Source: Rhodocyclaceae bacterium (GTDB taxonomy: Bacteria; Pseudomonadota; Gammaproteobacteria; Burkholderiales; Rhodocyclaceae). Taken from it: a stretch of 64,000 nt of DNA. Below the pieces are notes generated by a model, which was not told where the DNA came from, searched no databases, and was given only the letters and a program-made list of their open reading frames with translations. The DNA lies in assembly GCA_019455325.1 (NCBI GenBank), contig JACFMQ010000007.1:62001-126000 (forward strand), in the 5' to 3' direction. Shown here one piece after another: positions 1 to 58,091 of this stretch (its first letter is position 1; each line of letters starts with the position of its first letter). Both the position numbers and the translations under genes were made by a program.

Positions 1-1565
1 TCGACGAAATCCTGCGTATGGCGCAGATAGACGTTGGCGCCGAGCACGCCGCCGCTGAGGTGCCGCTCCAGCCCGGCTTCGAGGTTGGCGATGCGCTCCG
101 GCTTCAGGTTCGGGTTGCCGCCGCGGTCCGGTTCCAGCGGCGTGTTGGCCGAGGCCGCGCGCGTGGCGACGGCGGTCAGTTCGTCCAGCTTGGGGAAGCG
201 GATGGCGCCGGAGAGCGAGGTGCGCGCGACCCAGCCGCTGACCGGCTCCCAGCGCAGCGCCAGCGCCGGATCGACGGCGCCGTGGCTGCGCCTGTCGCCG
301 TCGGTGTCGATGCTCATGCGCTCGCCGCGCAGGCCGAGGGTCGCCGTCAGATCGGAACGCAGCGCCCACTCGTCCTGGAGCCAGAGCGTCCACTGCCGTT
401 CGCTGCCGGAAAAGTCGGTGGCGCCGACCACGGCGCCGGCGAATCCCTGCCGGTCGTCGCGGCGGTGCCGGGCGAAATCGACGCCGGTCGACAGGAAGTG
501 CGTGCCGACGGCGCGGTCCAGGCGCAGCGCGGCGGAGAACTCGCGGTCCTCGCGGCGCTCGGCCTCGGTCCAGGCGCTGACGGCGCCGAGCGCGTCGCGC
601 GCCACGCGGTCGCGGTCGGCGGTGCGGCGGCCCTGCATGATGGCGGCGCGGCCCGAGAGCTTCGAGTCGCCCATGCGCATCTCTCCTTCGGCGCGTACCC
701 GGGCGATGCGGATGCCGCTGTCCTCGCGGTCGTCGCGCGCGCCGCCGTTGCCGTGGTCGATGTCCGTCGCGCGCTTGCCGTCGTTGCGGTAGTAGCTCGG
801 CCAGAGCGTCAGCAGGTCGGCCCCCCGCCGCCACGAGAGCCGCGGCGAGAAGATGAATTCGTTGATCGAGTAGTCGCCGCGCTCTCTTTCCCAATCGGCG
901 CCGCTCAGGGTGGAGTCGCGCCGCAGCGTGCGGTCGACCGGCATGCCGTGGCGGTTGACGGTGATCGGCACGATCCAGGAAAACCCGCCTTCGCCGCCGC
1001 CGCGGGTGAACGTCGTCTGCCCGTTCGCCTCCGAGCCGCGCTGGCCGGCGGCGAGCTTCACGGAGGTCGAGTCGCGCGCGACCGGCTGCTTCATCACGAG
1101 GTTCACCGTCACCGGCGCGGCGCCGCCGAATTCGGCCGAGCCGCCGCGCAGGATCTCGATGCGCTCCAGCTCGCCGGACGGCATCCGCCCGACCTGGGTC
1201 AGCGCGAAGCGCGCGTTGGCCGTCGGCCGCTCGCCGTTCACCAGGAACTGCACCGCGTCGCGGCTCATGCCGCGCGCGCGCGCGCCCATGCCGCCGTCGG
1301 CGCCGTGCTCGCCGGCCTCGATGCCGGGCAGCTTGCGGATCACCTCGCCGACCGTCAGGCCGCCGAGCGCCTCGATCTCGGCGCGGTCGATCACCGTTTT
1401 CTGCGATACCGCCTCGCGCTGCTCGGCGAGCGCGTCGGAGGTCGCCGTGACGGTGACCTCCTTCAACTGGGTCGGCGCCGGTTCGGCGGCGAGCGCCGGG
1501 GCGAGGAAAGAGCAAAGGGCGACTGCTTGCAGCGTGTTTTTCGTGTTCATAGGGTTGGAAGCCAT
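1..1565 (-). CDS. TonB-dependent outer-membrane receptor, 3' end outside window
   Basis: Outer-membrane beta-barrel receptor of the TonB-dependent family. The protein starts with a typical signal peptide ending in APALAAE, then a short TonB-box-like stretch (KEVTVTAT) and a plug domain (VIDRAEIEALGGLTVGEVI, then LERIEILRG). Long alternating barrel strands follow, and the C-terminus is cut by the window edge. Translation could begin at 1565 or at the in-frame ATG at 1550; neither has a strong Shine-Dalgarno. It lies on the same strand 150 bp downstream of the chelatase gene and probably belongs to the same iron/heme unit. The ligand cannot be read from the sequence. The plus-strand frame opposite it is a shadow. 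Confidence 0.85.
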   Translation of the reverse strand, partial: MASNPMNTKNTLQAVALCSFLAPALAAEPAPTQLKEVTVTATSDALAEQREAVSQKTVIDRAEIEALGGLTVGEVIRKLPGIEAGEHGADGGMGARARGMSRDAVQFLVNGERPTANARFALTQVGRMPSGELERIEILRGGSAEFGGAAPVTVNLVMKQPVARDSTSVKLAAGQRGSEANGQTTFTRGGGEGGFSWIVPITVNRHGMPVDRTLRRDSTLSGADWERERGDYSINEFIFSPRLSWRRGADLLTLWPSYYRNDGKRATDIDHGNGGARDDREDSGIRIARVRAEGEMRMGDSKLSGRAAIMQGRRTADRDRVARDALGAVSAWTEAERREDREFSAALRLDRAVGTHFLSTGVDFARHRRDDRQGFAGAVVGATDFSGSERQWTLWLQDEWALRSDLTATLGLRGERMSIDTDGDRRSHGAVDPALALRWEPVSGWVARTSLSGAIRFPKLDELTAVATRAASANTPLEPDRGGNPNLKPERIANLEAGLERHLSGGVLGANVYLRHTQDFV

Positions 1566-1717: not shown

Positions 1718-4700
1718 TCACCCGGCGAACCGCCGCCCCTGCCGCCATGCGCCGGCGGCCGTGACGAACGAGAGCACCAGAATCACCGCCAGGGCCAGCG
1801 AGACGACCGGCGGCGGCGTCTCGACCTTGTCGAGGCGCATGCCTTCAATGATCGGCGGCGGCTCGCTCGGCACCGGCGGCGGCACCAGGTCGGCCGCCTG
1901 CTGCGGCCGCGTCGCCGGCAGCGAGGCGAGGAGCGCCGATAGGCCGAAGCCGGGGGCGACGAATTCCTTGAACGCCTGGTTGTCGGTGACCACGTCGTGG
2001 CGGCGGGCGAGGTCGTTGTAGCGCTCGCGCAGCTCGGCGAGCGTGCGCGGATCGGCCTGCCAGTAGCCCTGGCGCGCCGCTTCGACCATGCGCTCGATGG
2101 TCTGCGCCAGCGCGTGCGGGTTGTGCTTCTCGAACCACTCCCTGAGGCCGAGCTGGTGCTTGTCGCGCACGTAGACGTCGACGAACTCCTGCCACTGGTC
2201 GTCGCGCACGATCTCGCGGGCGACCATGGTCCAGCCGGAGAAGTTGTTCACGCCGTTGAGGACGTCCAGCGTGCCGGCGTAGCCTTCGTCCATCAGCCCC
2301 TTGATGTAGCCGGGGTGGAAGTTGCGCGTGGCCAGCTCCTTGGCGAGAAAGGCGTCGGCGCCTTCGACCTTGCCGCTGCCGGCGCCGCGCAGGTTGGAGA
2401 TGTACAGCTCCGGCGCCTTGCCGTCGAGATGGCGCACGGCGAGCCCGATGCCGCCGAGGTACTGGAAGGGATCGTCGGTGGTGAGCATGCCGTAGAGGTT
2501 CGAGGAGCGCGCCAGGATGGCGCCCTCGGTGCCCTTCAGGTGCTCGGCGTAGAGATTGATCTCGGCGCCCTTGCCGCCCGCTTCGTTCGTTGCGGCGGCA
2601 TTGCCCAGGGCGCCCTGGCTGCCCCAGTCGGCCTCGTCCGCGCCGTAGGCGAACTGCATGCGCGCCAGGTACAGGTTGGCCAGCTTGCGGTCGCCCTCGG
2701 CCTTGCCCTTCCAGGTGTCGGTGGCCAGCGCCGCGTCGTCCAGCCCGGTGGTGTAGGCGCCGGATTCGGAGGAGAACATGCGCGTCTCGGCGGCCTTCGT
2801 CGCCGCTGCCTCCGGCACGCCCTGCTTCATCAGCCGGGCGGCGATGGCGCGGCTGTTCTCGAACACCGGGTTGTCCGCCTCGTCGGCGCGGGCGGCGATC
2901 TGCACGGCCGTGGCGAGCTGCTTCATGGCGTTCGGGAAATGGTCGCGGTAGAGGCCGGTGGCCGAGAGCACGACGTCGACGCGCGGCCGGCCGAGCTTGT
3001 CGCGCGGCACCAGCTTGACGCCGGAGACGCGGCCGCCGGCATCCCACACCGGCTCGACGCCCATCATCCACAGCGCCTGCGCTTCGAGCAGCCCCTGATG
3101 GCGCATGGTCTCGATCGACCACAGCGAGAAGGCGAGTTTCTTCGGGAACTTGCCGGTTTTTGCCTTGTGCGTCGCGATCAGCGCCTCGGCCGCTTCCTTG
3201 CCCGCCGCCCAGGCCTGCTTGCTCGGTACGCGCGAGGGATCGAAGCCGTAGAGGTTGCGGCCGGTGGGCAGCGCGTCCGGGTTCTTCATCGGATCGCCGC
3301 CGTAGGAGGTCGGGATGTACTTCCCGGCGAGCCCCGTGATGAGGCCGTTCATCTCGCCGGCGGCGGCGAGCTGGCCGTACCAGGTCTTGCCCTGTTCGAA
3401 GCGTTCGGCCAGCTTCTCGTCGGCGGGCCTCGCCGTGCGGCCGTCCATCCAGTCGCGGAACAGCTTGAACGGCGGCGCCTCGACGGTCTTCTCGTAGCTG
3501 TCGACGAACATCTCGTCGAGCTCGCCGGCAGCGACGCCGGCGGCCTTGGCCGCGCTTTCCCAGAAGCCCTTGCCGAGCATCAGCAGCACGGTGCCCAGGC
3601 GGTGCGTCTCCTTCGGCGGCGTGGCGAAGGTGTGCAGGCCGAGCGGCTGCGCAGTCTGTGCGAGTTCGTGCAGGTGTACGTGCAGGGCGTCGACGAAGCC
3701 GCGGAAGTCGGCGTCGATCTTCGCCTCGTTCCAGCCCATGTCCTTGTCGATGCGCTCCTTCTTCACCGCCGCCTTGAGGTCGGTGGCGATCTTCAGCTTG
3801 ACCGCCCCTTCCTCCTGCGCGACCCAGGCGTGCAGCAGGTCGTGGATCTTCACCGTCGCCTCGTGCAGGCCGGCCGGCGCGAAGGCCGGCGTCTGGTGCG
3901 TGACGATGGTGGCGCGGCCGCGGCGCTTGGCCTGCATCGCCTCGCCGATGTTGTCGACGATGTACGGGTAGACCACCGGCACGTCGCCGATGGCGAGCAT
4001 CGGGTAGTCGGTCATCGAGAGACCGCGCTCCTTGCCCGGCAGCCATTCCTGCGAGCCGTGCGTGCCGTAGTGCACCAGCGCGTCGGCCTTGAGGCGCGTG
4101 CGCACCCACAGGTACTGCGCCAGGTAGTAGTGCGAGGGAATGGACTTGGTCGAGTGGTAGATCGCCTTTTCCTTGTCCTCCCATTTCTCGCCGCGCGGCG
4201 CCTGCGGCAGGAGGAAGATCTTGCCGGCGGCGAAGCGCGGGACGACGAAGTAGGAGGCGCCGCCCTCGCGGACGACCATCGCCGATTTCTCCGGCGCGCC
4301 CCAGCGTTCGGTGACCTCGCGCTGGACGGTTTCGGGCAGGGCGGAGAACCAGGCGCGGTATTCGGCGACCGGCAGCCGGTCGGCGAGGCCGTCGGCGAGG
4401 AGCGCCGGCAACTGGCCGTCGCGGTAGAAGGGCGCGAGCAGGCGCTGGAGCTTGCCGATCAGCGCCTCTTCCTCTTCCGGCTGCGCGTCGTAGCCGGCCT
4501 GGCGCAGGCCCTGCAGCGTCGCCGCCAGGCTCTTCGGCAGGTTGAGGAAGGAGGCGGAGAGGTTCTTTTCGCCCGACGGGTAGTTCCAGAACATCAGCGC
4601 GACCTTCTTGTCGGCGTTTGGCAGACGCTGCAGGCGCACCTGGTTGATCGCCTTGTTGACGACGGCGTCCGACTGCGCGCCGATCACCGTCACCGCGTCG

Positions 4701-5689
4701 TCGCCCTTGGTCTGTGCGCCGGCGACGACCGCGTCGGTGATGCCGGCGTATTCGCCCTGGGCGAGGAAGAAGGGCACGTCGATCAGCGGCACGCCCTGCG
4801 GGTCGGCGCGCCAGTCGGCCTCGTCGCCCTTGCGGTAGGAGAGCGCCTGCATGACCGGGATGCCGAGCGCCTCCAGCTCCTTGCGGCGCCCCTCCGGGTC
4901 GAGGACGATCTGCGTGTTGATGATGGCATCGGCGATGAGTTTGCCGTTCAGCCTGAGCAGGCCGCCCTGCGGCCCCATCACCGGTGCGTACCAGGCGAGC
5001 GGCACGGCGCCGGCGGCCTCGATGCGCGCGATCAGGTCGTCGATGAAGGCGGTCTGCTCGCTGCCGATATAGGTCTGGTGCACCGAGACGGCGATCACCG
5101 GCGGCTTCTTCGCCGGGTCGACCTGCTTCCAGCGCAGGTAGTCGGCGGTGTCGGCGAAGACGAGGCCGGGCGCCTGCGGGTGGTAGATCGCCGCCTTCGG
5201 AAAGACGATCGGCGCCGGGATGCCGTCCGTCGGCTGCCCCTTGCGCCAGGCGGCCAGCGTGCGGAAGAAGTTCTCGAAGTTCGGCCGCGCGCCGTTCACG
5301 TAATAGGCATGCAGGCGGTCGGCGATTTCCTTGGGGAAGCCCTCGGCCTTCGGCTTCGCGTCGTGCATCCAGATGTGCGGCGCGGTGAGGCCGGGCAGCG
5401 CCTTGGCGACCTTGCCGCGCACCGCTTCCTGCAGGTGGTCGCGCGGCGCGTCGAAGAAGACGAAGTCGGCGCCCCGCCACAGCGAGGCGTCCTGGTCGGC
5501 CGGCAGTTTCTCGGCCTGCACGGAATCGACGGTGAAGCCGTGCGCCGCGCCGATCTCGGCGAGGCGGGTGAACTTGCCGTGCGGCACCGGGCTGATGGAG
5601 ACGAAGCGCACGGTGTCCGCCAGGGCGGTATTGAGGACAAGGGCGGAGGCGGCGAGCAGGACGTGGCGAAGCAATCGGGCAAAAGGCAT
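1718..5689 (-). CDS. Exported, membrane-anchored CobN/HmuS-family chelatase
   Basis: 1323-residue member of the CobN/BchH large-subunit chelatase family, which moves metal ions into or out of tetrapyrrole rings. The family core is clear around residues 535-600 (HYGTHGSQEWLPGKERGLS, then DNIGEAMQAKRRGRATIV). Unlike cytoplasmic CobN it begins with a signal peptide (LLAASALVLNTALAD, residues 10-25) and ends with one hydrophobic helix (about 1292-1312) followed by RQGRRF. The body should therefore sit in the periplasm with the tail in the inner membrane. No cobS, cobT or other B12-synthesis gene is nearby; the upstream gene is a heme-type receptor. This matches the architecture and context reported for HmuS of Bacteroidota heme operons, a CobN relative that releases iron from heme. 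Function here is inferred; automated pipelines would probably call it cobaltochelatase CobN. Confidence 0.85.
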   Translation of the reverse strand: MPFARLLRHVLLAASALVLNTALADTVRFVSISPVPHGKFTRLAEIGAAHGFTVDSVQAEKLPADQDASLWRGADFVFFDAPRDHLQEAVRGKVAKALPGLTAPHIWMHDAKPKAEGFPKEIADRLHAYYVNGARPNFENFFRTLAAWRKGQPTDGIPAPIVFPKAAIYHPQAPGLVFADTADYLRWKQVDPAKKPPVIAVSVHQTYIGSEQTAFIDDLIARIEAAGAVPLAWYAPVMGPQGGLLRLNGKLIADAIINTQIVLDPEGRRKELEALGIPVMQALSYRKGDEADWRADPQGVPLIDVPFFLAQGEYAGITDAVVAGAQTKGDDAVTVIGAQSDAVVNKAINQVRLQRLPNADKKVALMFWNYPSGEKNLSASFLNLPKSLAATLQGLRQAGYDAQPEEEEALIGKLQRLLAPFYRDGQLPALLADGLADRLPVAEYRAWFSALPETVQREVTERWGAPEKSAMVVREGGASYFVVPRFAAGKIFLLPQAPRGEKWEDKEKAIYHSTKSIPSHYYLAQYLWVRTRLKADALVHYGTHGSQEWLPGKERGLSMTDYPMLAIGDVPVVYPYIVDNIGEAMQAKRRGRATIVTHQTPAFAPAGLHEATVKIHDLLHAWVAQEEGAVKLKIATDLKAAVKKERIDKDMGWNEAKIDADFRGFVDALHVHLHELAQTAQPLGLHTFATPPKETHRLGTVLLMLGKGFWESAAKAAGVAAGELDEMFVDSYEKTVEAPPFKLFRDWMDGRTARPADEKLAERFEQGKTWYGQLAAAGEMNGLITGLAGKYIPTSYGGDPMKNPDALPTGRNLYGFDPSRVPSKQAWAAGKEAAEALIATHKAKTGKFPKKLAFSLWSIETMRHQGLLEAQALWMMGVEPVWDAGGRVSGVKLVPRDKLGRPRVDVVLSATGLYRDHFPNAMKQLATAVQIAARADEADNPVFENSRAIAARLMKQGVPEAAATKAAETRMFSSESGAYTTGLDDAALATDTWKGKAEGDRKLANLYLARMQFAYGADEADWGSQGALGNAAATNEAGGKGAEINLYAEHLKGTEGAILARSSNLYGMLTTDDPFQYLGGIGLAVRHLDGKAPELYISNLRGAGSGKVEGADAFLAKELATRNFHPGYIKGLMDEGYAGTLDVLNGVNNFSGWTMVAREIVRDDQWQEFVDVYVRDKHQLGLREWFEKHNPHALAQTIERMVEAARQGYWQADPRTLAELRERYNDLARRHDVVTDNQAFKEFVAPGFGLSALLASLPATRPQQAADLVPPPVPSEPPPIIEGMRLDKVETPPPVVSLALAVILVLSFVTAAGAWRQGRRFAG

Positions 5690-5714
5690 GGGACGTTGGC
5701 TTGCTGGTCGTGGA

Positions 5715-6008
5715 TCAATGCAGCGACTGGCTGGCGGCGGGCAGGGCGGCGGGATGGTCGTTCCGGTCGGCGTGATCAGGGTGGTCGGAAATGGCGAACT
5801 GAAGCTGCGCCCATTCGCGTTCGAGGCGGGCGGCGAGCTGCTTGAGCGGCGGCGACATCTCGTCGTCGGGGTAATGCTGCAGGAGCGCCAGGCTGCGCCG
5901 GATGCGGCCGGCCAGCCGCGGGCAGCCGAGGCAGGAAAAGCGCGTCATCATCGACATCAGCGCGGCGACGAGGGCCGTCGGGTCGGGTAATCGGGGTCGC
6001 GGATCCAT
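5715..6008 (-). CDS. Small CxxC protein between heme receptor and chelatase
   Basis: 97-residue protein that I do not recognise. A good ribosome binding site (AAAGGAG, about 5 nt before the ATG) and a gap of only 25 bp to the chelatase start support it as real and co-translated. The sequence has a SCLGCPRLAGRIRRSL segment (CxxC followed by a basic helix) around residues 25-41, then an amphipathic acidic/basic helix (KQLAARLEREWAQLQ) and a polar His/Asp-containing tail. No signal peptide or membrane helix is obvious, so it is probably cytoplasmic. Its position between a heme receptor and a chelatase-like protein suggests a heme or iron-sulfur binding accessory, but that is inference from context only. 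Confidence 0.65.
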   Translation of the reverse strand: MDPRPRLPDPTALVAALMSMMTRFSCLGCPRLAGRIRRSLALLQHYPDDEMSPPLKQLAARLEREWAQLQFAISDHPDHADRNDHPAALPAASQSLH

Positions 6009-6029
6009 CGGGTCTCCTTTTGGTGAAAT

Positions 6030-6057
6030 GCCCCGGCACGCTCGCGCGTGCCGGGGC
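6030..6057 (-). terminator. Strong GC hairpin between receptor and small CxxC gene
   Basis: A perfect 12-bp inverted repeat (GCCCCGGCACGC and its complement around a TCGC loop) lies just after the receptor stop and before the small gene's ribosome binding site. No U-run follows on the minus strand, so it may be an attenuator or an mRNA-stabilising stem that lowers expression of the downstream genes relative to the receptor. Confidence 0.5.
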
Positions 6058-6083
6058 CTGTCTCCTTCTTCCTTCCGCAGGGC

Positions 6084-8558
6084 TTAGAAGTCGGCCTGGA
6101 AGGCGACGCGGAGGTTGCGGCCGGGCTGCGAGTAGTAATCGACGCCGGCCGTGGTGCTCAACACGCTCATGTGACGAATGTCGCTCCACACCCAGTACTT
6201 CTTGTCGAACACGTTGTTCAGCGCCACGGTCACGCGCGTATCGCGGCTCGGCTTGATCCAGGCGGCCAGATCGAACACGCCGTAGCCGGGGGTGCGGTAG
6301 TAGGAGGTGGTGCTGTCATCGACGCGCGACTTGCGCGCGGCGGCGCGCAGGCGGCTCTCCGCGCCCCAGGTGCCGGTGGCGTAGCTGACGCCGAGGCTGG
6401 CGCGCAGCGGGTCGACGCTGTTCAGCGGCTCGTTGGCGCCCTCGTCGGTGCCGTGCGCGTAGGCGATGGCACCGTCTGCCTGCCAGCCCGGCGCGAAGTC
6501 CCAACTGCCGCGCAGTTCCATACCGTAGATGCGAACCTTGCTCAGGTTCCGGGACTGGGAGGTGCCGTTGGCGAGGCCGGGGATGCAATCGGGGTCGGCC
6601 GGACAGTTGAGGTCTACCATGGTGATGAAGTCCTTGTAGCGGTTGTTGAACACCGCCACCTGTCCGTGCGTCTTCTCGCCCCTGGCGCGCAGCCCGAGTT
6701 CGAGACCGACGCTGGTTTCCGGCTTCAGATCCGGGTTCGGGATGACGCCGTAGCCGATGTTGATGTTGCGCAGGGACTGGTTGACCTCGCTGTAGTTCGG
6801 CGCGCGGAAGCCGCTGGCGATCTGGCCGTAGGTTGCCACCGCCGGCGTGAATTTCCACTGCCAGCCGAGCTTCGGCGAGATGCGGTCATAGGTCTGCGAA
6901 GAGGCCGTCCGACCGTTGGCAGTGAGCGATCCGGCAGCCAGCGCGTCCACATCCGGCTTGAGCCGGGACCAGTCGTAGCGGATGCCGGGGGTCAGCGTCA
7001 GGCGGTCGCCGAGGAAGCTGATTTCATCCTGCGCGAAGATGCCGAAGGTGTCCGTCGTGCCGTTCGGGAAGTAGCGCAGCGGGTATACCTCGCCATTGTT
7101 GTTCTTGGTGACGGTGCCGACGGGCGGCGGCGTCAGCGTGTTGACGCCGACCGGCCGCGGGAAGGCGCCGAAGGCGGCGGGGGGGATGCCGGCAAGGGTG
7201 GAGGTGAGGGTGATCGTCGTGTCGCTCTTCGTTTCGACTTCCTGGCGCATCAGGTCGGCGCCGTAGGTGAGGAGGTGCGAAACGCCGGCGAGCGTGAAGG
7301 CCGACTCCAGTTGAAGGTTGAGCGCGGTCTGCGTCTGCTCCATCTCGAACTTCTGATCCACGTCGCAGTTGGCGTTGGCCCAGCCGCGCGGGTCGAACGG
7401 CATCACGGCGGGCATGTACACGGGGCTGAAGGCGCCCGTTCCCCGCGCTGCACAGCCGGTGCCGCTGAAGTAATAGAGGGTTCTTTCGCGTTTCTGGTAG
7501 TTGTTGTTGTCGGTCTTCGTACTTTGATGCGACAGACGCGCCGTCAGCCGGTCGTAGAAGGCGCCGGTCGGCTTGTGCTCGTATTCGAGGCTGGCGCGCA
7601 GGCGCGAAGTTTCGTCATCGCCCTTCTGCGATGCGATCCGGTTGTATTCCGACTGATCCAGGCGAAGGATGTCCGATTCCGTCTGCTGGTAGCGGCCGTC
7701 CAGGGTCGCCGTCACGCGGTGGCCGGCGGCGGGCTTGAGGATCAGCTTGGCGATGCCGCCACGGTCGTTGCTGTGGAGTTCGTTGGGCTTGGTGCGATTC
7801 CCGGTGATGCGGCTGTTGGGGAGGGCGGGGCGTGTAGGGTCGGTAGAGGGGGTGCCGGTGCTGTGGCCCTCGTTGTCGAATTCATTGCTGCGGATTTGCG
7901 AATAGCCGAGCAGCAGTTCGGCGGCGTCGCCGCGCCAGGCGCCGATCACCGTGCCGGTCAGGCCGTCGTTGGCGCCCGTCCAGCTCCCCTTGAGGCGCAG
8001 GCCGGTGCGGGCGTCGCCGCGCAGGATGTCCGAGGGGTTCAGCGTCAGGTAGCCGACGACGCCGCCGAGCGCGTCCGAACCGTAGAGGCTGGAAGCCGGG
8101 CCGCGCACGATTTCGACCTGGCGCAGGAAGTCCGGCATCACCCCGAGCGGATTGTTCACCTGGAAGTTGGTCGGGCCGTAGGTGTAGAAATCGGCCATGC
8201 GCACACCGTCGACGGTCTGCACGATGCGGTTGTCCTCGATGCCGCGGATGTTTACCGACGCCGCACCGTGCCGGCGCAGGTCGCGGTTCATGACGATGTC
8301 CGGGTCGTCGCGGAAGAGGTCGGCTTCGTCCAGCGCCGGCCGGCGATCCATGTCCTCGCGCGTGACGGCGGTGACGGTCACCGGCAGGTCGTCGATGGCC
8401 GCTTCGCTGCGCGTGGCGGTGACGACGGTCTCGCGCATCTCCTGGTCGGCGGCGAAGGTCGGGGGGACGGCGACGGCGAGCGCTGCGGCCACGGCGGTGG
8501 CGAGCGGGCGAGGACGAACGGTGAACAAACGGCGCGTGCGTGCGCGAACGGTAGACAT
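6084..8558 (-). CDS. TonB-dependent heme/hemoglobin-type receptor
   Basis: 824-residue outer-membrane receptor that resembles the TonB heme / hemoglobin-transferrin-lactoferrin receptor group. It has a signal peptide (AAALAVAVPPTFAAD), a TonB box and plug (RETVVTATRSE, VEIVRGPASSLYGSDALGGVVGY), a long barrel (GYLTLNP, FRAPNYSEVNQS, NPDLKPETS), and a C-terminus typical of heme receptors (NNVFDKKYWVWSDIR, ending in F). An in-frame ATG lies 18 bp upstream, but the start at 8558 is chosen because AGGAGG lies 5 nt before it. A Fur-like site sits about 160 bp upstream. The small CxxC gene and the chelatase follow on the same strand. Heme as ligand is inferred from overall family resemblance; no residue-level proof is possible here. 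Confidence 0.85.
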   Translation of the reverse strand: MSTVRARTRRLFTVRPRPLATAVAAALAVAVPPTFAADQEMRETVVTATRSEAAIDDLPVTVTAVTREDMDRRPALDEADLFRDDPDIVMNRDLRRHGAASVNIRGIEDNRIVQTVDGVRMADFYTYGPTNFQVNNPLGVMPDFLRQVEIVRGPASSLYGSDALGGVVGYLTLNPSDILRGDARTGLRLKGSWTGANDGLTGTVIGAWRGDAAELLLGYSQIRSNEFDNEGHSTGTPSTDPTRPALPNSRITGNRTKPNELHSNDRGGIAKLILKPAAGHRVTATLDGRYQQTESDILRLDQSEYNRIASQKGDDETSRLRASLEYEHKPTGAFYDRLTARLSHQSTKTDNNNYQKRERTLYYFSGTGCAARGTGAFSPVYMPAVMPFDPRGWANANCDVDQKFEMEQTQTALNLQLESAFTLAGVSHLLTYGADLMRQEVETKSDTTITLTSTLAGIPPAAFGAFPRPVGVNTLTPPPVGTVTKNNNGEVYPLRYFPNGTTDTFGIFAQDEISFLGDRLTLTPGIRYDWSRLKPDVDALAAGSLTANGRTASSQTYDRISPKLGWQWKFTPAVATYGQIASGFRAPNYSEVNQSLRNINIGYGVIPNPDLKPETSVGLELGLRARGEKTHGQVAVFNNRYKDFITMVDLNCPADPDCIPGLANGTSQSRNLSKVRIYGMELRGSWDFAPGWQADGAIAYAHGTDEGANEPLNSVDPLRASLGVSYATGTWGAESRLRAAARKSRVDDSTTSYYRTPGYGVFDLAAWIKPSRDTRVTVALNNVFDKKYWVWSDIRHMSVLSTTAGVDYYSQPGRNLRVAFQADF

Positions 8559-8718
8559 GCGGGCCTCCTGAGTCATACTTCTTCTCGGCTGGCTGGCGCG
8601 TGGCTGGCTGGCTTTGGTTGGTCGGTAAGAATCCGGCGCGACAACGGTGCCGCGCTCCGTTCTCGGGGGGCGCGGGGGCGGCTCCGATCCGCCTCCATCG
8701 CTCCGCCTGAGCGAAAAT

Positions 8719-8737
8719 GAGAACGGATCGCATTATA
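8719..8737 (-). promoter_or_regulatory. Fur-box-like operator upstream of heme receptor
   Basis: GAGAACGGATCGCATTATA matches about 11 of 19 positions of the classical Fur box. It is nearly identical to the site before the next receptor (10936-10954) and similar to the site at 16880-16898. Repetition of one pattern before three receptor genes is the main support. Confidence 0.55.
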
Positions 8738-8802
8738 CGGATGGCCGGTCTTTTCGCAAGCGCCGCGCGGTCCGCGACCGGGGGCGTGTTGCGCCGGCCC
8801 CA

Positions 8803-8847: not shown

Positions 8848-10779
8848 TCAGAAGTCGGCGCGCAGATTGACGTAGACCGTCCGCCCCGGCTCGGCGTAGC
8901 CGAACAGCGGCGAACGTTCGGCGAGGCGAACATCGCTCAGGTTGTTGACGCCGGCGCGGACGGCGAAGATCTTGTTCAGCTTCTTGCCGACGCTGGCGTT
9001 CCACAGCGTATAGCTCGGCAGGGAAGCGTTGGTGCTGTCCTTCGTATCGCCGTTGTATTCGGCGCCGATGCGCGCGCTCCAGCCGTCGCCCGGCTTCCAG
9101 TCGAGGCTGGAGGCGACGGTCAGGTCGGCGCGGTTGGGCAGGTCGTTGCCGGTGGCCTCGTCCTTGGTGCGCAGGCGGGTGAGATCGAGATGCCACGACA
9201 GGCTGGGGACGATGGTCCAGGTGAAACCGGCTTCCAGGCCGGCGAGAGTGGCCTTGTTGATGTTGTCGTAGAGATAGGTGCGGCGAGTGCCGACGATGTA
9301 CAGCACGCGGGAGGTGATCAGATCCTCGACGCGCGAGCGGAAGAGCGTCGAGCGCAGGGCGAGCGGACCGCTCTGCCAGTCGGCGGAAATCTCGAAGGTG
9401 TCGGAGCTTTCCGGCTTGATGTCGTCGTTGCCGAGGAAGGTGTGCGGCCCCTCGGCGCCGACGTAGGCCGACGACGCCTGCTTCAGCGTCGGCGCCTTGA
9501 AGGCGTGGCCGTAGCCGCCCTTGAGCACGAGTTCCGGGGTCGGCTGCCAGACGAGGTAGGCGCGCGGACTCGTCTCCGAGCCGAAGATTTCGTGCCTGTC
9601 GAAGCGGACGCCGGCGGTCAGGGCGAGGGTGTCGGTCAGGAAGAACTCGTCCTGGACGAACAGCGCCTTGTGCGTGGCATCGTCCTTGCCGCCGATGAGG
9701 CCGTTGTTCTCCAGCGTCTCTTCGCGGAATTCGCCGCCGAAGGTCAGCTCGTGCCGGCCGAGACGCAGCGCCGCGAAGCCGTCGACGACCTCGTCGCGCA
9801 GGTTCTGCGGACGGGTGGCGGAGACGCCGTTGGTGCGGGTGTTCTTGATGTCGATCTCGCTGAAGTAGGCGCGCAACTGTCCGCGCCAGCCGTCGAAATT
9901 GCCTTTCCAGGCGATGCTGCCCTGCTCGCGGTCGATATGGTAGGTGTTCTCGTAGCGGCCGCGCGTGGCATTGACGTCGTCGTACCAGCGCCTGTCTTGC
10001 CCGGTCTGCCAGTCGGCCTCGATGTATTGCTGCGCGCTCAGGCGCAGCGAGCCGCCGACGCCGAAGCTGTCGGTGCGGCGGCCTTCGATTTCCGAATAGC
10101 GGCGGTCGTCGATCTGGCCGACCGGCGAGAGGCGCGAACTCTCGCCGTTGAAGCGCAGCGTCACCGCGTCGCCGACCGGGCCGGCGGCGAAGAACGAGGC
10201 GCGCGCGCCGTCGCCGCTCGGGCCGGTGGTGTTGTTCGAGCCGCCGACTTCCAGCGAGCCGGTCCAGGCGTCGGTCGGCCGGCGCAGGATCATGTTGACC
10301 ACGCCGCCCAGCGCCTCCGAGCCGTAGAGCGTCGACATCGGGCCGCGGATCACCTCGATGCGCTCGATGGCGGAGACCGGCAGCCAGCCGTACTGGTAGT
10401 CCGAGTGGCCGACGACGTCGTCCGAGGGGGAGATGCGGCGCCCGTCGACGAGCGTCAGCGTGTGCTTGCCCTCGAAGCCGCGCAGGGCGATCGTCTTGCG
10501 GCCGCCGACCTGGCGCGGCATCAGCGTGATGCCGGGCGTGCCGCGCAGCGCGTCGAGCAGGTCGCTCGCGTTGCGGGTTTCGAGCTCCTCGCGCGTGATC
10601 GTCGTCACCGAGGCGGGCGCGGTGCGCGTCTCGTGCTCGGTGAGCGTGGCGGTGACCACGGTTTCACGCAACTGCTGCTCGGCGGCGGCGGCCGGCATGG
10701 CGGCGAGGGTCGCGGCGACGGCGACGAACAGCGGACAAAGGGCGAGGCGATGCTGCGGATGAGCACGAAGGGGGGACAT
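8848..10779 (-). CDS. TonB-dependent receptor, catecholate siderophore type
   Basis: 643-residue outer-membrane receptor. Signal peptide near residues 10-32 (VAVAATLAAMPAAAAEQ), TonB box (RETVVTATLTEHE), and plug with LRGTPGITLMPRQVGG, LVDGRRISPSD and IERIEVIRGPMSTLYGSEALGGVVNMI. The barrel includes GYGHAFKAPTLKQ, and the protein ends in VNLRADF. The plug pattern resembles the IrgA/CirA-like receptors for ferric catecholates and their breakdown products. A GGAG ribosome site precedes the start. It has its own Fur-like site upstream and a hairpin downstream, so it is probably a single-gene unit. The exact ligand is uncertain. Confidence 0.85.
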   Translation of the reverse strand: MSPLRAHPQHRLALCPLFVAVAATLAAMPAAAAEQQLRETVVTATLTEHETRTAPASVTTITREELETRNASDLLDALRGTPGITLMPRQVGGRKTIALRGFEGKHTLTLVDGRRISPSDDVVGHSDYQYGWLPVSAIERIEVIRGPMSTLYGSEALGGVVNMILRRPTDAWTGSLEVGGSNNTTGPSGDGARASFFAAGPVGDAVTLRFNGESSRLSPVGQIDDRRYSEIEGRRTDSFGVGGSLRLSAQQYIEADWQTGQDRRWYDDVNATRGRYENTYHIDREQGSIAWKGNFDGWRGQLRAYFSEIDIKNTRTNGVSATRPQNLRDEVVDGFAALRLGRHELTFGGEFREETLENNGLIGGKDDATHKALFVQDEFFLTDTLALTAGVRFDRHEIFGSETSPRAYLVWQPTPELVLKGGYGHAFKAPTLKQASSAYVGAEGPHTFLGNDDIKPESSDTFEISADWQSGPLALRSTLFRSRVEDLITSRVLYIVGTRRTYLYDNINKATLAGLEAGFTWTIVPSLSWHLDLTRLRTKDEATGNDLPNRADLTVASSLDWKPGDGWSARIGAEYNGDTKDSTNASLPSYTLWNASVGKKLNKIFAVRAGVNNLSDVRLAERSPLFGYAEPGRTVYVNLRADF

Positions 10780-10935
10780 GCGAGTCTCCAGTCAGGCGTT
10801 TCGATGTTGGCTGGCGCGCGGCTGGCTGGGATTCTTTCGGCGGGGAGGCCGGGGGCGGCGCCGGCGAAGCGGCGCTGCGACCCGTTTTCCGCCGGCTGCG
10901 GGCGCCGGCTTCGGCCGGCGCCCGATGTCGCAAAT

Positions 10936-10954
10936 GAGAACGGGTGGCATTATA
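10936..10954 (-). promoter_or_regulatory. Fur-box-like operator upstream of catecholate receptor
   Basis: GAGAACGGGTGGCATTATA, preceded by AAAT. It differs at only two positions from the site before the heme receptor. It lies about 160 bp before the start of the gene at 10779, the same distance as in the neighbouring unit, so the two promoter regions may share a common origin. Confidence 0.55.
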
Positions 10955-11059
10955 TGTTGTGGCGAATGCTCGGGCAAGCGTCTTTCGCTTCGGGCGCGCC
11001 GGGCGGCGCGTAGAACGGGGCGGCGGTGGCGATGGCGACCCTTGGCGCCGGTTGCAGTC

Positions 11060-11577: not shown

Positions 11578-11974
11578 GAACCGGGGCATCCGCCAGCGCG
11601 AGGAGGGCGAGGCGGAGGAGCTTCATGGCTCGCTCGTCGCCCTGCGCCGCGAGCGCGATTTCGATCTGCGCACGAGCGTGCGGCGGATCGCCGCCCTCAG
11701 CGACGAAGTGGCGCGGCTGCGCGCGCTCTGCGAGGAGCAGCGTCAGCAGCTCGTCGCCTATGCCTCGGGCGAGGCGATCGTCAGCCTCGGGCGCCGGCTG
11801 ATGGCGCTGAGCGCCGCCAACGACGGTCTGCGCGAGGCCGCGGAACGGGCGCGCACGCTGCAGGCGCTGCTCGACGCGACGCGCGACGAATACCGCCGCC
11901 TCGCCGCCGAACGCGACGCGCTGGCGGCGGCCCTCGCCGCGGCGGCTGGAGACGGGCGGGAGGTGCTGCGATGA
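11561..11974 (+). CDS. Coiled-coil protein of DUF2325 unit
   Basis: 137-residue protein that is almost entirely charged coiled coil. Heptad-like Leu/Ala with Glu/Arg runs from about residue 20 to 130 (IAALSDEVARLRALCEEQ, LLDATRDEYRRLAAERDALA). No signal peptide or membrane segment. It overlaps the previous gene by 17 bp and the next by 4 bp (ATGA). The following gene product also contains a long coiled coil, so the two may pair. Function unknown. Confidence 0.65.
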   Translation: MLAPLENRGIRQREEGEAEELHGSLVALRRERDFDLRTSVRRIAALSDEVARLRALCEEQRQQLVAYASGEAIVSLGRRLMALSAANDGLREAAERARTLQALLDATRDEYRRLAAERDALAAALAAAAGDGREVLR

Positions 11975-13230
11975 GCGCCGCCTTCCCCTTCGCCGTGCTC
12001 GGCAACGTCGCCGGCCTGGTGCGTCGCGCCGGCGTCGCCGCGTCGCCGGTCGACGGCCTGCTGCCGCCGCCGCGTCCGGCCGGCTCGCGCCGCCGCCGGC
12101 TGTGGGAGCTGCCGCACAAGTTCCACTGCCCGCTGGTCGGCGTCTGCTTCGACTGCCAGGAACTGCGGACGCTGATGAAGAAGGTCATGCATTTCCCGCC
12201 GGGGACCACCGATTTCGTCCTGCACACCACCGCGGTCGGCGCCTGCGAGGAGCGCACGCCGCTCGCCGAGGCGATGCAGAAGACCCTGGAGCAGCGCTAC
12301 CGTCTCGCCGTGCGCGGGCTCGCCGGCCTGCGCGACACGGACGGCCTGCGCAACGCCTGGCGCCAGGTGGTTGCCGACGGCACCGCCATTCCGGCGACGC
12401 TCTGGGCCTGCTGGACGCATCCGGCGATGGACGCGGAGCTGGAGCAGGAAATCTTCGCCGACATCCACATGATCCAGCACCAGGTCGGCGCCGGCACGCG
12501 TGCCGACCTGCAGGCGATGGAGCGCCTGCGCCGCGACAACGCCGAACTGCGCCGGCAACTCGCCGCGCAGGGCGCCGAACTGGACGAGGCGCGCGCCGGC
12601 CGCGTCGCCGCGACGCAGGCGGCGGCGAAGGAGACCGCCGGACTGCGCGCCGAGCTGGCCGCGGCCGAGGCCGCCGGTGCACGGGTGGCGAAGGAGCTGG
12701 CCGAGCTGCGCGCGCGCATCGTCGATCTCGATACGCGCGAAACGCTGGCGCGGCGCGCCGCTGCCGCGGAGGCGCGGGAGGCCGCCGAACGCCGGCGCGC
12801 CGAGGGGCTGGCCGGGGAGCTTGCCCGGCTGCGCGCCACCGTGCGGCCGCCGGAGCCGCCGCCGGCCGCCGAAATCGACGCCGAGGAGGAGGCCGCCGAG
12901 CTGCCGGCCACCCGCGATCTCGCCGGCAAGTGCGTACTCTGCGTCGGCGGGCGTACCGGCGCCGTCGATTCCTATCGCGAGGTGGTCGAGCAGTCGGGCG
13001 GCCGTTTCGTACACCACGACGGCGGCGTCGAGGAGAACCTGCAGCGCATCGACAGCGCGCTGGCTGCGGCCGACATCGTCATCTGCCAGGTCGGCTGCAT
13101 CAGCCACAACGCCTATTGGCGCGTGAAGGCACAGTGCAAGCGCACCGGCAAGCCGTGCATGTTCGTGAAGAGCGCCGGCGTCTCCAGCTTCGGCCGCGCG
13201 GTCGAGGCCGTCGGCCGGCAGGAGGCGTAG
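11971..13230 (+). CDS. DUF2325-domain protein with Cys/His N-terminal region and coiled coil
   Basis: 419-residue protein in three parts. Residues 1-170 form a conserved-looking region with clustered His and Cys (LPHKFHCPLVGVCFDCQEL near residue 50, WACWTHPAMD near 150, IHMIQHQ). Residues 175-300 are coiled coil. Residues 310-410 match DUF2325 in character (KCVLCVGGRTGAVDSYREVVE, then HHDGGVEENLQRIDSAL and ADIVICQVGCISHNAYWRVK), a small Rossmann-like domain of unknown function. It is the last gene of the iron-type operon, overlapping the previous one by 4 bp. The Cys/His cluster could bind heme or metal. No published role is known to me. Confidence 0.8.
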   Translation: MSAAFPFAVLGNVAGLVRRAGVAASPVDGLLPPPRPAGSRRRRLWELPHKFHCPLVGVCFDCQELRTLMKKVMHFPPGTTDFVLHTTAVGACEERTPLAEAMQKTLEQRYRLAVRGLAGLRDTDGLRNAWRQVVADGTAIPATLWACWTHPAMDAELEQEIFADIHMIQHQVGAGTRADLQAMERLRRDNAELRRQLAAQGAELDEARAGRVAATQAAAKETAGLRAELAAAEAAGARVAKELAELRARIVDLDTRETLARRAAAAEAREAAERRRAEGLAGELARLRATVRPPEPPPAAEIDAEEEAAELPATRDLAGKCVLCVGGRTGAVDSYREVVEQSGGRFVHHDGGVEENLQRIDSALAAADIVICQVGCISHNAYWRVKAQCKRTGKPCMFVKSAGVSSFGRAVEAVGRQEA

Positions 13231-33481: not shown

Positions 33482-35776
33482 ATGACCACGATCCACACGC
33501 TCGGTTTCCCCCGCATGGGCGCCCAACGCGAACTGAAGTTCGCCCTCGAACGCCACTGGCGCGGCGAGATCGCCGCCGACGAACTGGCCGCCGTCGGCCG
33601 CGCGCTGCGCGCCCGGCACTGGCAGTTGCAGCGCGACGCCGGCCTCGATTTCGTCACCGTCGGCGATTTCGCCTATTACGACCACGTCGCCAACCACATC
33701 CAGTTGCTCGGCTGCGAGCCGGCCCGTTTCGGCTTTTCCGGCGACGAGCCGGCGCTGGCCCGCTACTTCACGCTGGCCCGCGGCGTCGCCCGCGAGGCCG
33801 GCGCTTCGGAAGCCGGCAGCCCGGCGCTGGAAATGACCAAGTGGTTCGACACCAACTACCACTACCTGGTCCCGGAATTCACCCCGGAAACGACCTTCTC
33901 GCTGGCCGACGAGCGCCTGTTCGCGGAAGTGGACGAAGCCCTGGCCCTCGGCCATCCGGTCAAGGCCGTGCTGCTCGGGCCGCTCTCCTTCCTGTGGCTG
34001 GGTAAGGAGAAGTCGGCCGGCTTCGCGCGCCTCGACCTGCTCGACCGGCTGCTGCCGGTCTATGGGGCGATCCTCGCCCGGCTGAAGGCGCAGGGCGTGC
34101 AGTGGGTGCAGATCGACGAGCCGATCCTCGGCCTCGACCTGCCGCCGGCCTGGCGGCAGGCGTTCGAGCCGGCCTATGCCCATCTGGCGGGCGCCGGCGT
34201 GTCGCTGCTGCTCGCCACCTATTTCTCGCCGCTGCAGGAGAACCTCGGCCTGGCCTGCCGGCTGCCGGTGCACGGCCTGCACGTGGACGGCGTGCGCGCG
34301 CCCGAGGAAATCGCCGCCGTCGCCGACTGGCTGCCGTCGCACAAGGCGCTGTCGCTCGGCGTCGTCGACGGCCGCAACGTCTGGCGCACCGACCTCGACG
34401 CCGCGCTGCGGCTGCTGCGCGGGCTGCACGAAGTGCGCGGCGGCAGCCTGTGGCTGGCACCGTCGTGCTCGCTGCTGCACGTACCGTTCAGCGTCGCGGA
34501 CGAGACCGGGCTGGACGAGGAACTGCGCGGCTGGCTGGCTTTCGCCGTCGACAAGCTCGACGAACTGCGCGTGCTCAAGCAGGCGCTGGCCGGCGATCCG
34601 GCCGCCGAAGCGCCGCTGGCGCAGGCCCGCGCCGCGATCCAGTCGCGCCGCGCCAGCCGCCGCGTGAACGACCCGGCGGTGGCCGAGCGCCTTGCCTCGC
34701 TGCCGGCCGACGCCGACCGCCGCCGCTCGCCGTTCCCGCAGCGCCAGAGCGCGCAGCGCGATCGCTTCGGGCTGCCGCCGCTGCCGACGACGACCATCGG
34801 CTCCTTCCCGCAGACCGCCGAGATTCGCGCCGCGCGCGCCGCGTTCAAGCGCGGCGAACTGAACGCGGCCGACTATCGGAAGGCGATGGAGAAGGAAATC
34901 GCCCACGCCGTCGCCGTCCAGGAAGCACTGGGCCTCGACGTGCTGGTGCACGGCGAAGCCGAGCGCAACGACATGGTCGAGTATTTCGGCGAGCAACTGG
35001 CCGGCTTCTGCTTCACCGGCAACGGCTGGGTGCAGTCCTACGGATCGCGCTGCGTCAAGCCGCCGATCATCTACGGCGACGTGTCGCGCTCGCGGCCGAT
35101 GACCGTGGACTGGACGGTCTACGCCCAGAGCCTGACGAAGAAGCCGATGAAGGGCATGCTGACCGGGCCGATCACCACCCTGCAATGGTCCTTCGTGCGC
35201 GACGATCAGCCGCGCTCGACGACCGCCGCGCAGATCGCGCTGGCCGTGCGCGACGAGGTCAGCGATCTGGAAAGGGCCGGCATCGGCATCGTCCAGATCG
35301 ACGAGCCGGCGATCCGCGAGGGCCTGCCGCTGCGCCGCGAGGCCTGGCGCGACTACCTCGCTTGGGCGACCCGCGCCTTCCGTCTGGCGGCCTCCGGCGT
35401 CGCCGACGAGACGCAGATCCACACACACATGTGCTACTCGGAGTTCAACGACATCCTGCCCGAGATCGCGGCCATGGACGCCGACGTCATCACCATCGAG
35501 ACCAGCCGCTCGGACATGGAGCTGCTGCACGCCTTCGGCGAGTTCAAGTATCCGAACGAGATCGGCCCCGGCGTCTACGACATCCACTCGCCGCGCGTGC
35601 CGTCGACGGAAGAGATGACGCGCCTGCTCGACAAGGCGCTGGCGGTGATCCCGGCCGGCAATCTCTGGGTCAACCCGGACTGCGGCCTGAAGACCCGCGG
35701 CTGGCCGGAAACCGAGGCGGCGCTGCGGGCGATGGTGGCGGCGGCAAGGGCGGCACGGGAGCGCCTGGGCGGCTGA
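33482..35776 (+). CDS. metE: Cobalamin-independent methionine synthase
   Basis: 764-residue enzyme that methylates homocysteine from 5-methyltetrahydropteroyltriglutamate without B12. N-terminal barrel begins [15 protein letters not shown]. The C-terminal barrel carries the zinc site: HTHMC (Cys651) and [11 protein letters not shown] (Cys734). Length is normal (E. coli 753). Start 33482 follows GAGGTAG. Presence of MetE, like the riboswitch-controlled nrd genes downstream, shows the cell has a set of enzymes for B12-poor conditions. Confidence 0.97.
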
Positions 35777-37294: not shown

Positions 37295-37324
37295 TTGACA
37301 GCGCAAAACGGCGTGAACTAGACT
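37295..37324 (+). promoter_or_regulatory. Sigma-70-type promoter of the nrd operon
   Basis: TTGACA (37295-37300), 18-bp spacer, TAGACT (37319-37324). Predicted start near 37331, exactly where the riboswitch begins. Confidence 0.7.
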
Positions 37325-37331
37325 GAGCGCC

Positions 37332-37507
37332 GTCGAAGGTTCCCCGAAGGGGAACAATAGGGAATCCGGTGCCAGGTCGCAGACCTCAACCCGGAACTGC
37401 CCCCGCAACTGTAATCGGCAAGCGCTGCGCCGACACGTGCCACTGGATTTCTTCCGGGAAGGCAGGCGAAGCGCGTCGAGCCGAGAGTCAGGAGACCTGC
37501 CTTCGAC
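37332..37507 (+). promoter_or_regulatory. Cobalamin (B12) riboswitch
   Basis: Clear adenosylcobalamin-type aptamer. P1 is a perfect 8-bp stem, GTCGAAGG (37332-37339) with CCTTCGAC (37500-37507). Conserved parts in order: GGGAATCCGGTG, the CCCCCGCAACTGTAA core, the B12 box GCCACTG (37439-37445), and the closing GAGTCAGGAGACCTGCC. It controls the ribonucleotide reductase genes downstream, presumably switching them off when B12 is plentiful. Confidence 0.97.
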
Positions 37508-37756
37508 ACTTCCTTAATCCAGTTTTGGGGCGGGGTGTCCCCAACGTGAGGTCGAGCATGAGTCTTCCGTCTGCCGCCGCTCGCGCACCGGTCCTTGGGC
37601 CGCTGCGGTCCGTCCCCGCCCGTTTTGGCGGAGACGGTCGATGCCGGCGCAACCAGCTTCCTTCCTGAACGGCGAATCAGCGTTTGTACCCGTGCGCGCC
37701 CGTCGCGGCCGCGCGGCCGTCCCGCATTCCGATTTCCCCAACTGAAGGATAAATAA
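37508..37756 (+). promoter_or_regulatory. nrd leader / riboswitch expression platform
   Basis: A 249-base leader between aptamer and nrdA. It holds a stable imperfect stem near 37608-37640 (GTCCGTCCCCGCC opposite GGCGGAGACGGTC, loop CGTTTT) with no U-run after it. A 36-codon frame at 37558-37668 has no ribosome site. The nrdA ribosome site GAAGGA lies just before the ATG. How B12 binding is transmitted (Rho, stem occlusion) cannot be told by eye. Confidence 0.5.
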
Positions 37757-53392: not shown

Positions 53393-53707
53393 ATGGATCC
53401 GACATTCCGCTTCGTTTCGTTCGCCGACCATCGTCCGCGGCTCAACACGACCCTGCGTTCCCTGCTGGCGATCTTCGGCGGCTACGGGCTGGCCGCGCTG
53501 GCGGCGGCCACGTTTTCGCTGGCCCTGCCGCTGCCCAGGGTGGACGCGGTGATGGCCGCGGTCATGCTGGCCTTCGTCGTCTATCTGCTGGCGGCCATCT
53601 GGGTTTTCGCGGCGGCGACGCTGGTGCGCGCCTTCGCCGGCCTGCTGCTGCCGGCGGTGATTCTGGGCGCATGGCTCGGCGCCCTGCTCAGGGGAGCTGC
53701 GGCATAA
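53393..53707 (+). CDS. DUF3649 small membrane protein, iron uptake locus
   Basis: 104-residue protein with three hydrophobic helices (LLAIFGGYGLAALAAATFSLAL, AVMAAVMLAFVVYLLAAIWVFAAATLV, GLLLPAVILGAWLGALL). Fits the DUF3649 family, small membrane proteins found next to PepSY and DUF3325 proteins in siderophore loci. Start 53393 is chosen for GGAGGTGG 6 nt upstream; an ATG at 53359 lies inside the Fur-like site. Role probably in handling iron from siderophores at the inner membrane; mechanism unknown. Confidence 0.8.
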   Translation: MDPTFRFVSFADHRPRLNTTLRSLLAIFGGYGLAALAAATFSLALPLPRVDAVMAAVMLAFVVYLLAAIWVFAAATLVRAFAGLLLPAVILGAWLGALLRGAAA

Positions 53708-53739
53708 GATTCGACAAGCCGCGTCATTTCCGCCAGTCG

Positions 53740-55578: not shown

Positions 55579-55594
55579 ATCCGAAGGAAGAAAC

Positions 55595-55921: not shown

Positions 55922-55922
55922 G

Positions 55923-57266: not shown

Positions 57267-57268
57267 GG

Positions 57269-57985: not shown

Positions 57986-58035
57986 GATCGGATTTTGTGT
58001 CGATTTGTGTCGGGGGCGAACATAGTCTGGAAAAT

Positions 58036-58054: not shown

Positions 58055-58091
58055 AACAAATTTTATCACTCAACATGGGAGATCGGTACAA

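Follow-up and report, generated by a model that had tools for sequence, protein, structure and literature searches.

A putative periplasmic dechelatase of the BtuS/HmuS kind in a probably iron-regulated receptor unit of a Rhodocyclaceae bacterium

A 64,000-nucleotide stretch of a Rhodocyclaceae bacterium genome (hereafter the window; assembly GCA_019455325.1, contig JACFMQ010000007.1, here C23, positions 62001-126000) contains a unit in which a CobN/ChlH-superfamily protein, CobN1, is encoded together with TonB-dependent receptors (TBDTs). The genome comprises 4.46 Mb and is stated to be 100% complete with 2.03% contamination. Judging from the sequences compared here, the unit represents a real and conserved CobN-like periplasmic system, and we give an even chance to the interpretation that it is a periplasmic metal-scavenging or dechelatase system of the BtuS/HmuS kind, under Fur control and with heme or some other iron tetrapyrrole as its substrate. 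This interpretation is preferred because of the topology of the protein, the gene order TBDT-CobN-ExbB-DUF2149, the heme-family receptors and the Fur-type sites, because the tree separates CobN1 from CobN and BchH while residues H544 and E583 are kept, because CobT, CbiC, PF01126, HemS and PF10615 were not found in a genome with one FeoB, and because all 18 DUF2149 genes in the genomes surveyed lie near a CobN-superfamily gene. Heme would be the likeliest substrate, though not an established one.

CobN1 (1323 amino acids; 1718..5689, minus strand) is the putative dechelatase. It matched PF02514 with 997.8 bits across residues 127-1216 and the equivalog model NF004644 ("cobaltochelatase subunit CobN") with 1419.5 bits, above the cut-off, and carries a CobN-like DD motif. 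Four CobN-superfamily genes are present in the genome, of which CobN1 and CobN2 belong to this unit; CobN3 is 62% identical to CobN1 and lies behind a heme-family receptor, near a FecI-like sigma factor and a FecR relative, and CobN4 is located behind ZrgA, a zinc protein. Hydropathy (KD19 2.53), evaluated with thresholds set by us, gave CobN1 an N-terminal signal peptide and a C-terminal hydrophobic helix followed by basic residues. In the CobN1/CobN3 group (56 sequences, with some contigs cut short) 53 had the N-terminal segment and 41 the C-terminal helix. Both features occurred in 8/8 epsilonproteobacterial relatives and 2/2 HmuS, and neither of them in any of 8 true CobN or 2 BchH. The sequence-only reading, made earlier from the DNA, had described an export signal and an anchor that cytoplasmic CobN lacks, and this was borne out clearly by the comparison. 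An AlphaFold2 (AF2) model of residues 110-1240, made from an alignment of 33 sequences, reached a predicted local distance difference test score (pLDDT) of 87.6 and a predicted template modelling score of 0.86. Foldseek placed CobN 7c6o first (template modelling scores 0.81/0.79), followed by the HmuS structures 9d26 (0.80/0.73) and 9p4s (0.82/0.82) and by ChlH; against full ChlH chains the score was 0.74-0.77 by query length. The body of CobN1 is thus predicted to have the full class I chelatase fold.

The family position of CobN1 was examined with two trees. With FastTree (81 sequences, open reading frames (ORFs) outside 1150-1480 amino acids being left out) the 69 proteobacterial exported-type proteins formed a single clade with support 1.0, and with IQ-TREE (24 sequences) CobN and BchH together were split from every exported type, including HmuS, with support of 99.8/99. 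A constraint joining the window family to CobN was rejected (delta log likelihood 45.7, approximately unbiased test, p = 0.0009), as was one grouping HmuS with BchH (p = 0.013). An unannotated Kovacikia sequence that had first been labelled ChlH fell in the CobN clade and was counted as CobN. The phylogeny with CobN, BchH and HmuS, which had been proposed as a check, therefore places the protein outside the CobN and BchH clades. That HmuS is the closest sister group to the window family was also considered and not adopted, the support being weak (SH-aLRT 67-70, UFBoot 59-63). In the scan of genome contigs described below, the closest full-length relatives of CobN1 are from Rhodocyclaceae/Rhodocyclales metagenome-assembled genomes (MAGs; 80-81% identity). 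By its sequence features (CobN superfamily, exported, anchored, outside the CobN/ChlH clades) CobN1 falls within the broad definition of BtuS, a placement made on these properties. For proteins of this type "cobaltochelatase subunit CobN", as NCBIfam has it, seems a misleading label.

CobT and CbiC were both absent from the genome, and therefore B12 synthesis is not considered to be the role of CobN1. The earlier claim that cobS and cobT are missing was thus supported for CobT across the whole genome; CobS was not searched. It is extremely improbable that CobN1 is the true cobaltochelatase CobN of aerobic B12 synthesis, situated near receptors by chance: such an enzyme would explain the NF004644 match and the DD motif, but not the signal peptide and anchor, the lack of CobT and CbiC in a genome stated to be complete, the exclusion from the CobN clade in the trees or the absence of any riboswitch (Rfam) in the window's part of the unit. 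That the protein is not a B12 enzyme, as the sequence-only reading held, accords with all these observations. The sole Rfam match in the window was a cobalamin riboswitch at 37320-37518 (plus strand, 121.6 bits). It precedes the genes for a ribonucleotide reductase large subunit (37757-40519) and an anaerobic NrdD (40516-42558). A B12-independent methionine synthase is encoded at 33482-35776. The CbiX gene of the genome adjoins a Rieske-like ORF (by eye) and is uninformative on CobN.

One scan of genome contigs gave 69 loci, 62 of which had a CobN1/CobN3-type gene (L064, L065 and five others were set aside). A TBDT was found upstream in 51 of the 55 loci with enough sequence (the misses were L042, L043, L052 and L054), and a script found ExbB and DUF2149 downstream in 41 of the 43 loci with at least 4.3 kb of downstream sequence; in the remaining two (L023 and L072) ExbB is present, in over-long frames. 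The order TBDT-CobN-ExbB-DUF2149 recurs in Betaproteobacteria, and two Bacteroidota records have HmuY, the receptor, HmuS, a hypothetical protein at the place of HmuT, ExbB and DUF2149. In the window genome a receptor (TBDT2) and CobN2 intervene between CobN1 and ExbB: beyond the window edge, C23 continues after TBDT2 with CobN2 (1380 amino acids), an ExbB-like protein (PF01618, 28.3 bits, cut-off 22.9) and the single DUF2149 gene of the genome. The survey of neighbours for heme receptors versus cobalamin genes, which the sequence-only reading had suggested, thus returned heme-family receptors in an hmu-like order.

Among 398 Pseudomonadota genomes, the window's own included, DUF2149 was found in 17 (18 genes) and PF02514 in 134, and the 17 were all among the 134. 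Each of the 18 DUF2149 genes has a CobN-superfamily gene at a distance of no more than about 2.5 kb (12 by coordinates and 6 by the stretches L125-L130). The reverse does not hold, and ExbB-DUF2149 as a constant partner of CobN was rejected, given that no such pair was found near CobN3, CobN4 or in L061. In three Campylobacterota loci (L064, L065 and L070) the DUF2149 and CobN genes share a few bases; the receptor is more than 1.1 kb away in L064 and L070 and directly before CobN in L059 and L061. In DUF2149 proteins an Asp heads the membrane helix (NLIDIFLV type); a pattern recovered it in 61 of 62 cases, and it was seen by eye in the last. Such a membrane Asp is also found in ExbD. Methanosarcina acetivorans, an organism without outer membrane, was the single one of 14 named control genomes to have DUF2149, and it also has PF02514. 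A dedicated motor of the chelatase was considered because DUF2149 is always near CobN, overlaps it in some loci, has the membrane Asp and is present in Methanosarcina acetivorans. Assignment of DUF2149 to ExbD by profile failed, the best result being an E value of 0.056, below cut-off, for one of three members scanned, and the AF2 model of DUF2149 was poor (pLDDT 63.4). HmuU and HmuV have been assigned to powering heme import (PMC12583661). We tentatively suggest, as a possibility with perhaps one chance in four, a chelatase family driven by the proton-motive force, in which ExbB and an ExbD-like DUF2149 form the motor of the CobN-like protein in place of ChlI/ChlD or CobS/CobT. In such a family, branches specific for iron or for zinc would take the metal from different chelates, each by means of a His/Asp active site and a domain IV set of metal-handling histidines peculiar to it.

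Further arrangements were seen in this survey. In Azonexus hydrophilus (L014:14442-19715) a ZrgA-ExbB-DUF2149-CobN4 group lies on the opposite strand, adjoining an iron-type operon. Sulfurospirillum and Sulfurovum MAGs (L064, L065) have two CobN-like proteins per locus with the receptor between them. A divergent CobN-like group with frames of 1433-1568 amino acids adjoins ExbB and DUF2149 in L125-L129 (G368, G342, G288, G360 and G282); the N-terminus is hydrophobic in this group, which carries the motifs GRHSTYEF and NND.

The receptor TBDT_H (6084..8576, minus strand) matched the heme/hemoglobin receptor models TIGR01785 (435.1 bits, cut-off 316.85) and TIGR01786 (441.1 bits, cut-off 323.75), as expected for the heme-type receptor that had been predicted. 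Of 56 receptors scanned (52 from relatives and four of the window genome) 43 matched each of the two heme-family models at E ≤ 1e-94. TBDT_C, a second receptor (8848..10779, minus strand), has CirA-like proteins as its best models, below their cut-offs. In 11 of 55 loci a relative of TBDT_C is the receptor that most closely precedes CobN. Between TBDT_H and CobN1, 25 bp before the latter, lies a gene for a 97-amino-acid protein with a CLGC motif (5715..6008, minus strand), which matched no Pfam or NCBIfam family in profile scans and has BLAST relatives between receptor and CobN in 12 other loci. The CxxC peptide of the sequence-only reading is therefore present as described, whereas its motif is not conserved, given that the first Cys is missing in 4 of 13 distinct sequences (L011, L023, L034 and L051).

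The pattern AATGAGAACnnnnnGCATTATA matched the window twice, at 8716-8737 upstream of TBDT_H and at 10933-10954 upstream of TBDT_C (22 bp each, no strand assigned), and had 0 matches in 100 shuffles; it was built from the two sites themselves and the leaders are duplicated, so the sites are not independent. The receptor leaders (8577-8770 and 10780-10975) are alike over most of their length, operator included. When the E. coli Fur consensus was used as a 19-position scoring standard, at least 13 of 19 positions were matched in 25 of 53 regions before receptor genes (52 from relatives and that of the CobN3 locus), as compared to 2.5% of mononucleotide shuffles; 8 of the 25 sites were identical and hence not independent. 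These sites suggest that the unit is probably iron-regulated by Fur. The Fur-like site claimed earlier was thus recovered before both receptors, with the reservation that the two copies count as one observation from which the pattern itself was derived. In four regions before ZrgA-CobN4-type loci no Zur site was found above the shuffle level.

Residues were compared in an alignment from which a filter left out 16 of the 30 loci L095-L124, in which row L129_8818, read in the wrong frame, and a duplicate of the Cupriavidus sequence were not counted, and in which L082_10686 was placed in neither group. HmuS turnover is described as requiring His538, which is faced by His1209 (PMC12583661). The equivalent of His538 is kept in CobN1 as H544 in HYGTHG and is His in 72/72 sequences of the type; in L125-L130 it is kept in altered motifs (GRHS, GTHA). 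The equivalent of HmuS Glu577 is E583 in a gap-free alignment, and H544, E583 and the Ser1199 equivalent are invariant across the CobN1/CobN3 group. H864 and H1125 are His in the exported set, save for Gln at the first in L132 and Asn at the second in Cupriavidus, and not in HmuS, CobN or BchH, where the first column has Thr, Ser or Gly and the second has Asn. At the domain IV positions 616, 620, 670 and 674 His was found in 57/57 CobN1/CobN3-type sequences, H-H-H-D in four CobN4-like sequences (COBN4, L014, L131 and L132), D-E-H-H in Cupriavidus and Glu-Asp-Asp-Cys in 20-21 of 22 CobN, and no such set occurs in CobN2, the epsilon types, HmuS or BchH. In the AF2 model 616/620 are on helix 501-515 and 670/674 on helix 553-569 (fragment numbering), each pair with i, i+4 spacing, which in the model would suit a metal site. 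Reading the type of metal from this set was rejected: each branch is a single clade and CobN2 of the same operon is without the set, so there is no general rule. The four His where CobN has Glu-Asp-Asp-Cys, together with the insertion of metal by cytoplasmic superfamily members, might instead indicate a forward chelatase that inserts or exchanges metal in the periplasm, but Fur-type sites and receptor partners suit iron uptake and not cofactor building, and we regard this as very improbable.

Several observations weigh against a Fur-regulated heme dechelatase. About half of the upstream regions of relatives have no Fur match at 13/19, the closest relatives score 12 (L009), 11 (L010) and 9 (L049) of 19, and the window's own two sites score 12/19. 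Although the genome has no PF01126 heme oxygenase, HemS or PF10615, which favours the dechelatase, radical-SAM and IsdG-type heme enzymes lay outside the search. No His lies between FRAP and NPDL in TBDT_H, and the pattern found no box in two HmuR, so it had no positive control; of 58 receptors (the 56 and the two HmuR) 37 had FRAP-like and NPxL boxes, with no His between them in 35. Classic heme receptors are described as having a conserved His on the FRAP/NPNL loop (PMC6449446, PMC3832793), with Hma, which has Tyr in its place, as an exception (PMC3832793). In the active site, the HmuS motif LSLDHxxEFMGG is replaced by LTTDDPFQYLGG in CobN1, and His1209 by Asp (D1073) in 78/78 sequences of the exported non-Bacteroidota types (72/72 and 6/6). 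This column is Asp in 21/22 CobN and His in 2/2 HmuS and 2/2 BchH, which means that Asp is the state of the corrin-type CobN. Two further residues of the HmuS cleft, Gln1198 and Trp1202, are likewise exchanged. Of the Site 1 heme ligands of HmuS, Met79 and His254, the His254 column is Ile in 57/57 CobN1/CobN3-type sequences, in an N-terminal alignment that is weak. The Met79 column lies in the same weak alignment (P29, A12, gap 12 and G3 of 56, with no Met among the commonest) and was set aside. From HxGxHG to GGD, CobN1 spans 251 residues, 8 of them Met, and is without the Met-rich insertion of HmuS, where this span is 416 residues with 35 Met in P. nigrescens and only 308 with 13 in B. finegoldii. 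The likeness to HmuS assumed in the sequence-only reading therefore does not extend to the active site, given that CobN1 has neither His1209 nor His254 nor the Met-rich insertion. Finally, a B. fragilis btuS1 btuS2 double mutant is reported still to have formed protoporphyrin IX (PMC6460266).

These points raise two other interpretations. The same machine might take iron from a corrinoid, a siroheme- or coproporphyrin-type tetrapyrrole or a non-tetrapyrrole chelator and not from heme b. The corrin-type Asp in all 78 sequences, the lack of the loop His in 35/37 receptors, the CirA-like receptor nearest to CobN in 11/55 loci, the paralogue beside ZrgA and the Zur-regulated PA1922-PA1925 operon of P. 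aeruginosa (PMC4542158) are consistent with this, while the 43/56 receptors in the heme/hemoglobin families and a gene order equal to hmuRSUV argue for heme; a different substrate is a serious possibility, at somewhat under one chance in three. Loss of the second axial His of HmuS, and the report that the B. fragilis BtuS double mutant retains and even raises dechelatase activity (PMC6460266), could also suggest that the protein is non-catalytic and serves in the periplasm to bind or carry iron tetrapyrrole or the iron set free from it, or that it acts as regulator of a different dechelatase. Given the invariant H544, E583 and Ser1199 equivalent, the full class I fold predicted for the body and the finding that B. 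theta HmuS is a dechelatase needing His538 (PMC12583661), such a role seems unlikely.

If the unit is a periplasmic dechelatase system, an iron tetrapyrrole, probably heme or something closely related to it, would enter the periplasm via the TonB receptors and be bound by the anchored CobN-like protein in its class I chelatase cleft, where the chelatase reaction could run in reverse and release Fe(II), which FeoB, the ferrous importer, could take up. ExbB-DUF2149 may replace the ATP-driven partner of CobN/BchH and bring proton-gradient energy to the receptor, the chelatase or both. Substrate, direction of reaction, energy source and independence from oxygen are what we infer; architecture, topology, gene order, operator, family position and the absence of CobT and CbiC can be read from the DNA. 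The periplasmic route of iron removal from heme proposed in the sequence-only reading is in agreement with a non-B12, exported protein, heme-family receptors and the hmu gene order, and in disagreement with the changed HmuS active site and the missing loop His. A conserved betaproteobacterial version, present in several cultured strains (Azospira oryzae DSM 21223, L021, and Zoogloea oleivorans, L028, are examples of culturable carriers), would extend heme dechelation to environmental bacteria, perhaps with iron sources beyond host heme. A branch that has the first axial His and not the second offers a natural test of which residues dechelation requires, and the company of ExbB and DUF2149 raises the question of how a class I chelatase acts in a compartment without ATP.

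The genes of the unit that lie in the window are on the minus strand, and an ORF check of the window found the chelatase, the CxxC peptide and the receptor where they had been reported. The unit is larger than these three genes, with a receptor before them and a receptor, CobN2, ExbB and DUF2149 after them. The order of transcription is TBDT_C, TBDT_H, the 97-amino-acid protein, CobN1 and TBDT2, of which the window contains the N-terminal part (1..1550, cut by the window edge; identified from its ORF and the continuation on C23). Divergent from the unit is a DUF2325 protein (11971-13230, plus strand), with a ATTCTCAT half site near 11070. In CobN4 (L008:9251-13365, G000:C24) the N-terminal part apparently lies in a different reading frame, reflecting a broken gene or a sequencing error. 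A PepSY_TM protein, a two-component-like ORF pair (by eye) and a TonB receptor relative (58092-60305) at 53671-60305 are perhaps a further metal-uptake cluster.

A literature search, mostly at listing level and with subscription papers mostly outside reach, met no account of the betaproteobacterial unit. Cytoplasmic CobN works with AAA+ partners (PMC7689651). CobN of CobNST (7c6o) and BchH/ChlH share the fold and the HxGxHG motif with CobN1 but have no export signal or anchor, and are in cob or bch clusters in annotated comparators (not in Tsukamurella). The PA1922-PA1925 operon of P. aeruginosa (PMC4542158, PMC8531726) resembles the unit in having TonB receptor, CobN-like and ExbD-like genes in one metalloregulated operon, and differs in belonging to the zinc (Zur) and not the iron regulon; by gene context CobN4, beside ZrgA in L008, may be its nearer counterpart. 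BtuS has been described as a third CobN type linked to the use of heme iron, and in B. fragilis as CobN-related, exported, anchored and proposed for metalloporphyrin salvage (PMC6460266); it has also been named in Methanosarcina barkeri (PMC10846266). BtuS was studied in Bacteroides, whereas the window protein represents a betaproteobacterial branch with residues of its own.

The closest comparison is with HmuS of the hmuYRSTUV operon, reported to be found primarily in Bacteroidota and to have given the first direct demonstration of biological heme dechelation, in 2025, B. theta HmuS being a His538-dependent dechelatase (PMC12583661); HmuS of P. gingivalis is described in PMC13227078. The activity that marks HmuS is the conversion of heme to protoporphyrin IX with NADH. 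BLAST found no relatives of HmuY or HmuT, either in the window and L006 or among the 69 loci, a search with no positive control in the set. HmuS (9d26, 9p4s) and CobN1 both have the export signal, the C-terminal transmembrane helix, the class I chelatase fold and the equivalents of His538 and Glu577, and the Bacteroidota order hmuR-S-U-V corresponds to the receptor-CobN-ExbB-DUF2149 order of the betaproteobacterial loci. The best BLAST segments between the two proteins are 33-34% identical over 475-486 residues. CobN1 differs in having Asp for His1209, Gln for Glu1212 and Ile for His254, in lacking the Met-rich insertion and in having four conserved His in domain IV. On these residues CobN1 is not a member of HmuS and is instead a variant of the BtuS/HmuS kind, which resembles HmuS in gene order, topology and fold.

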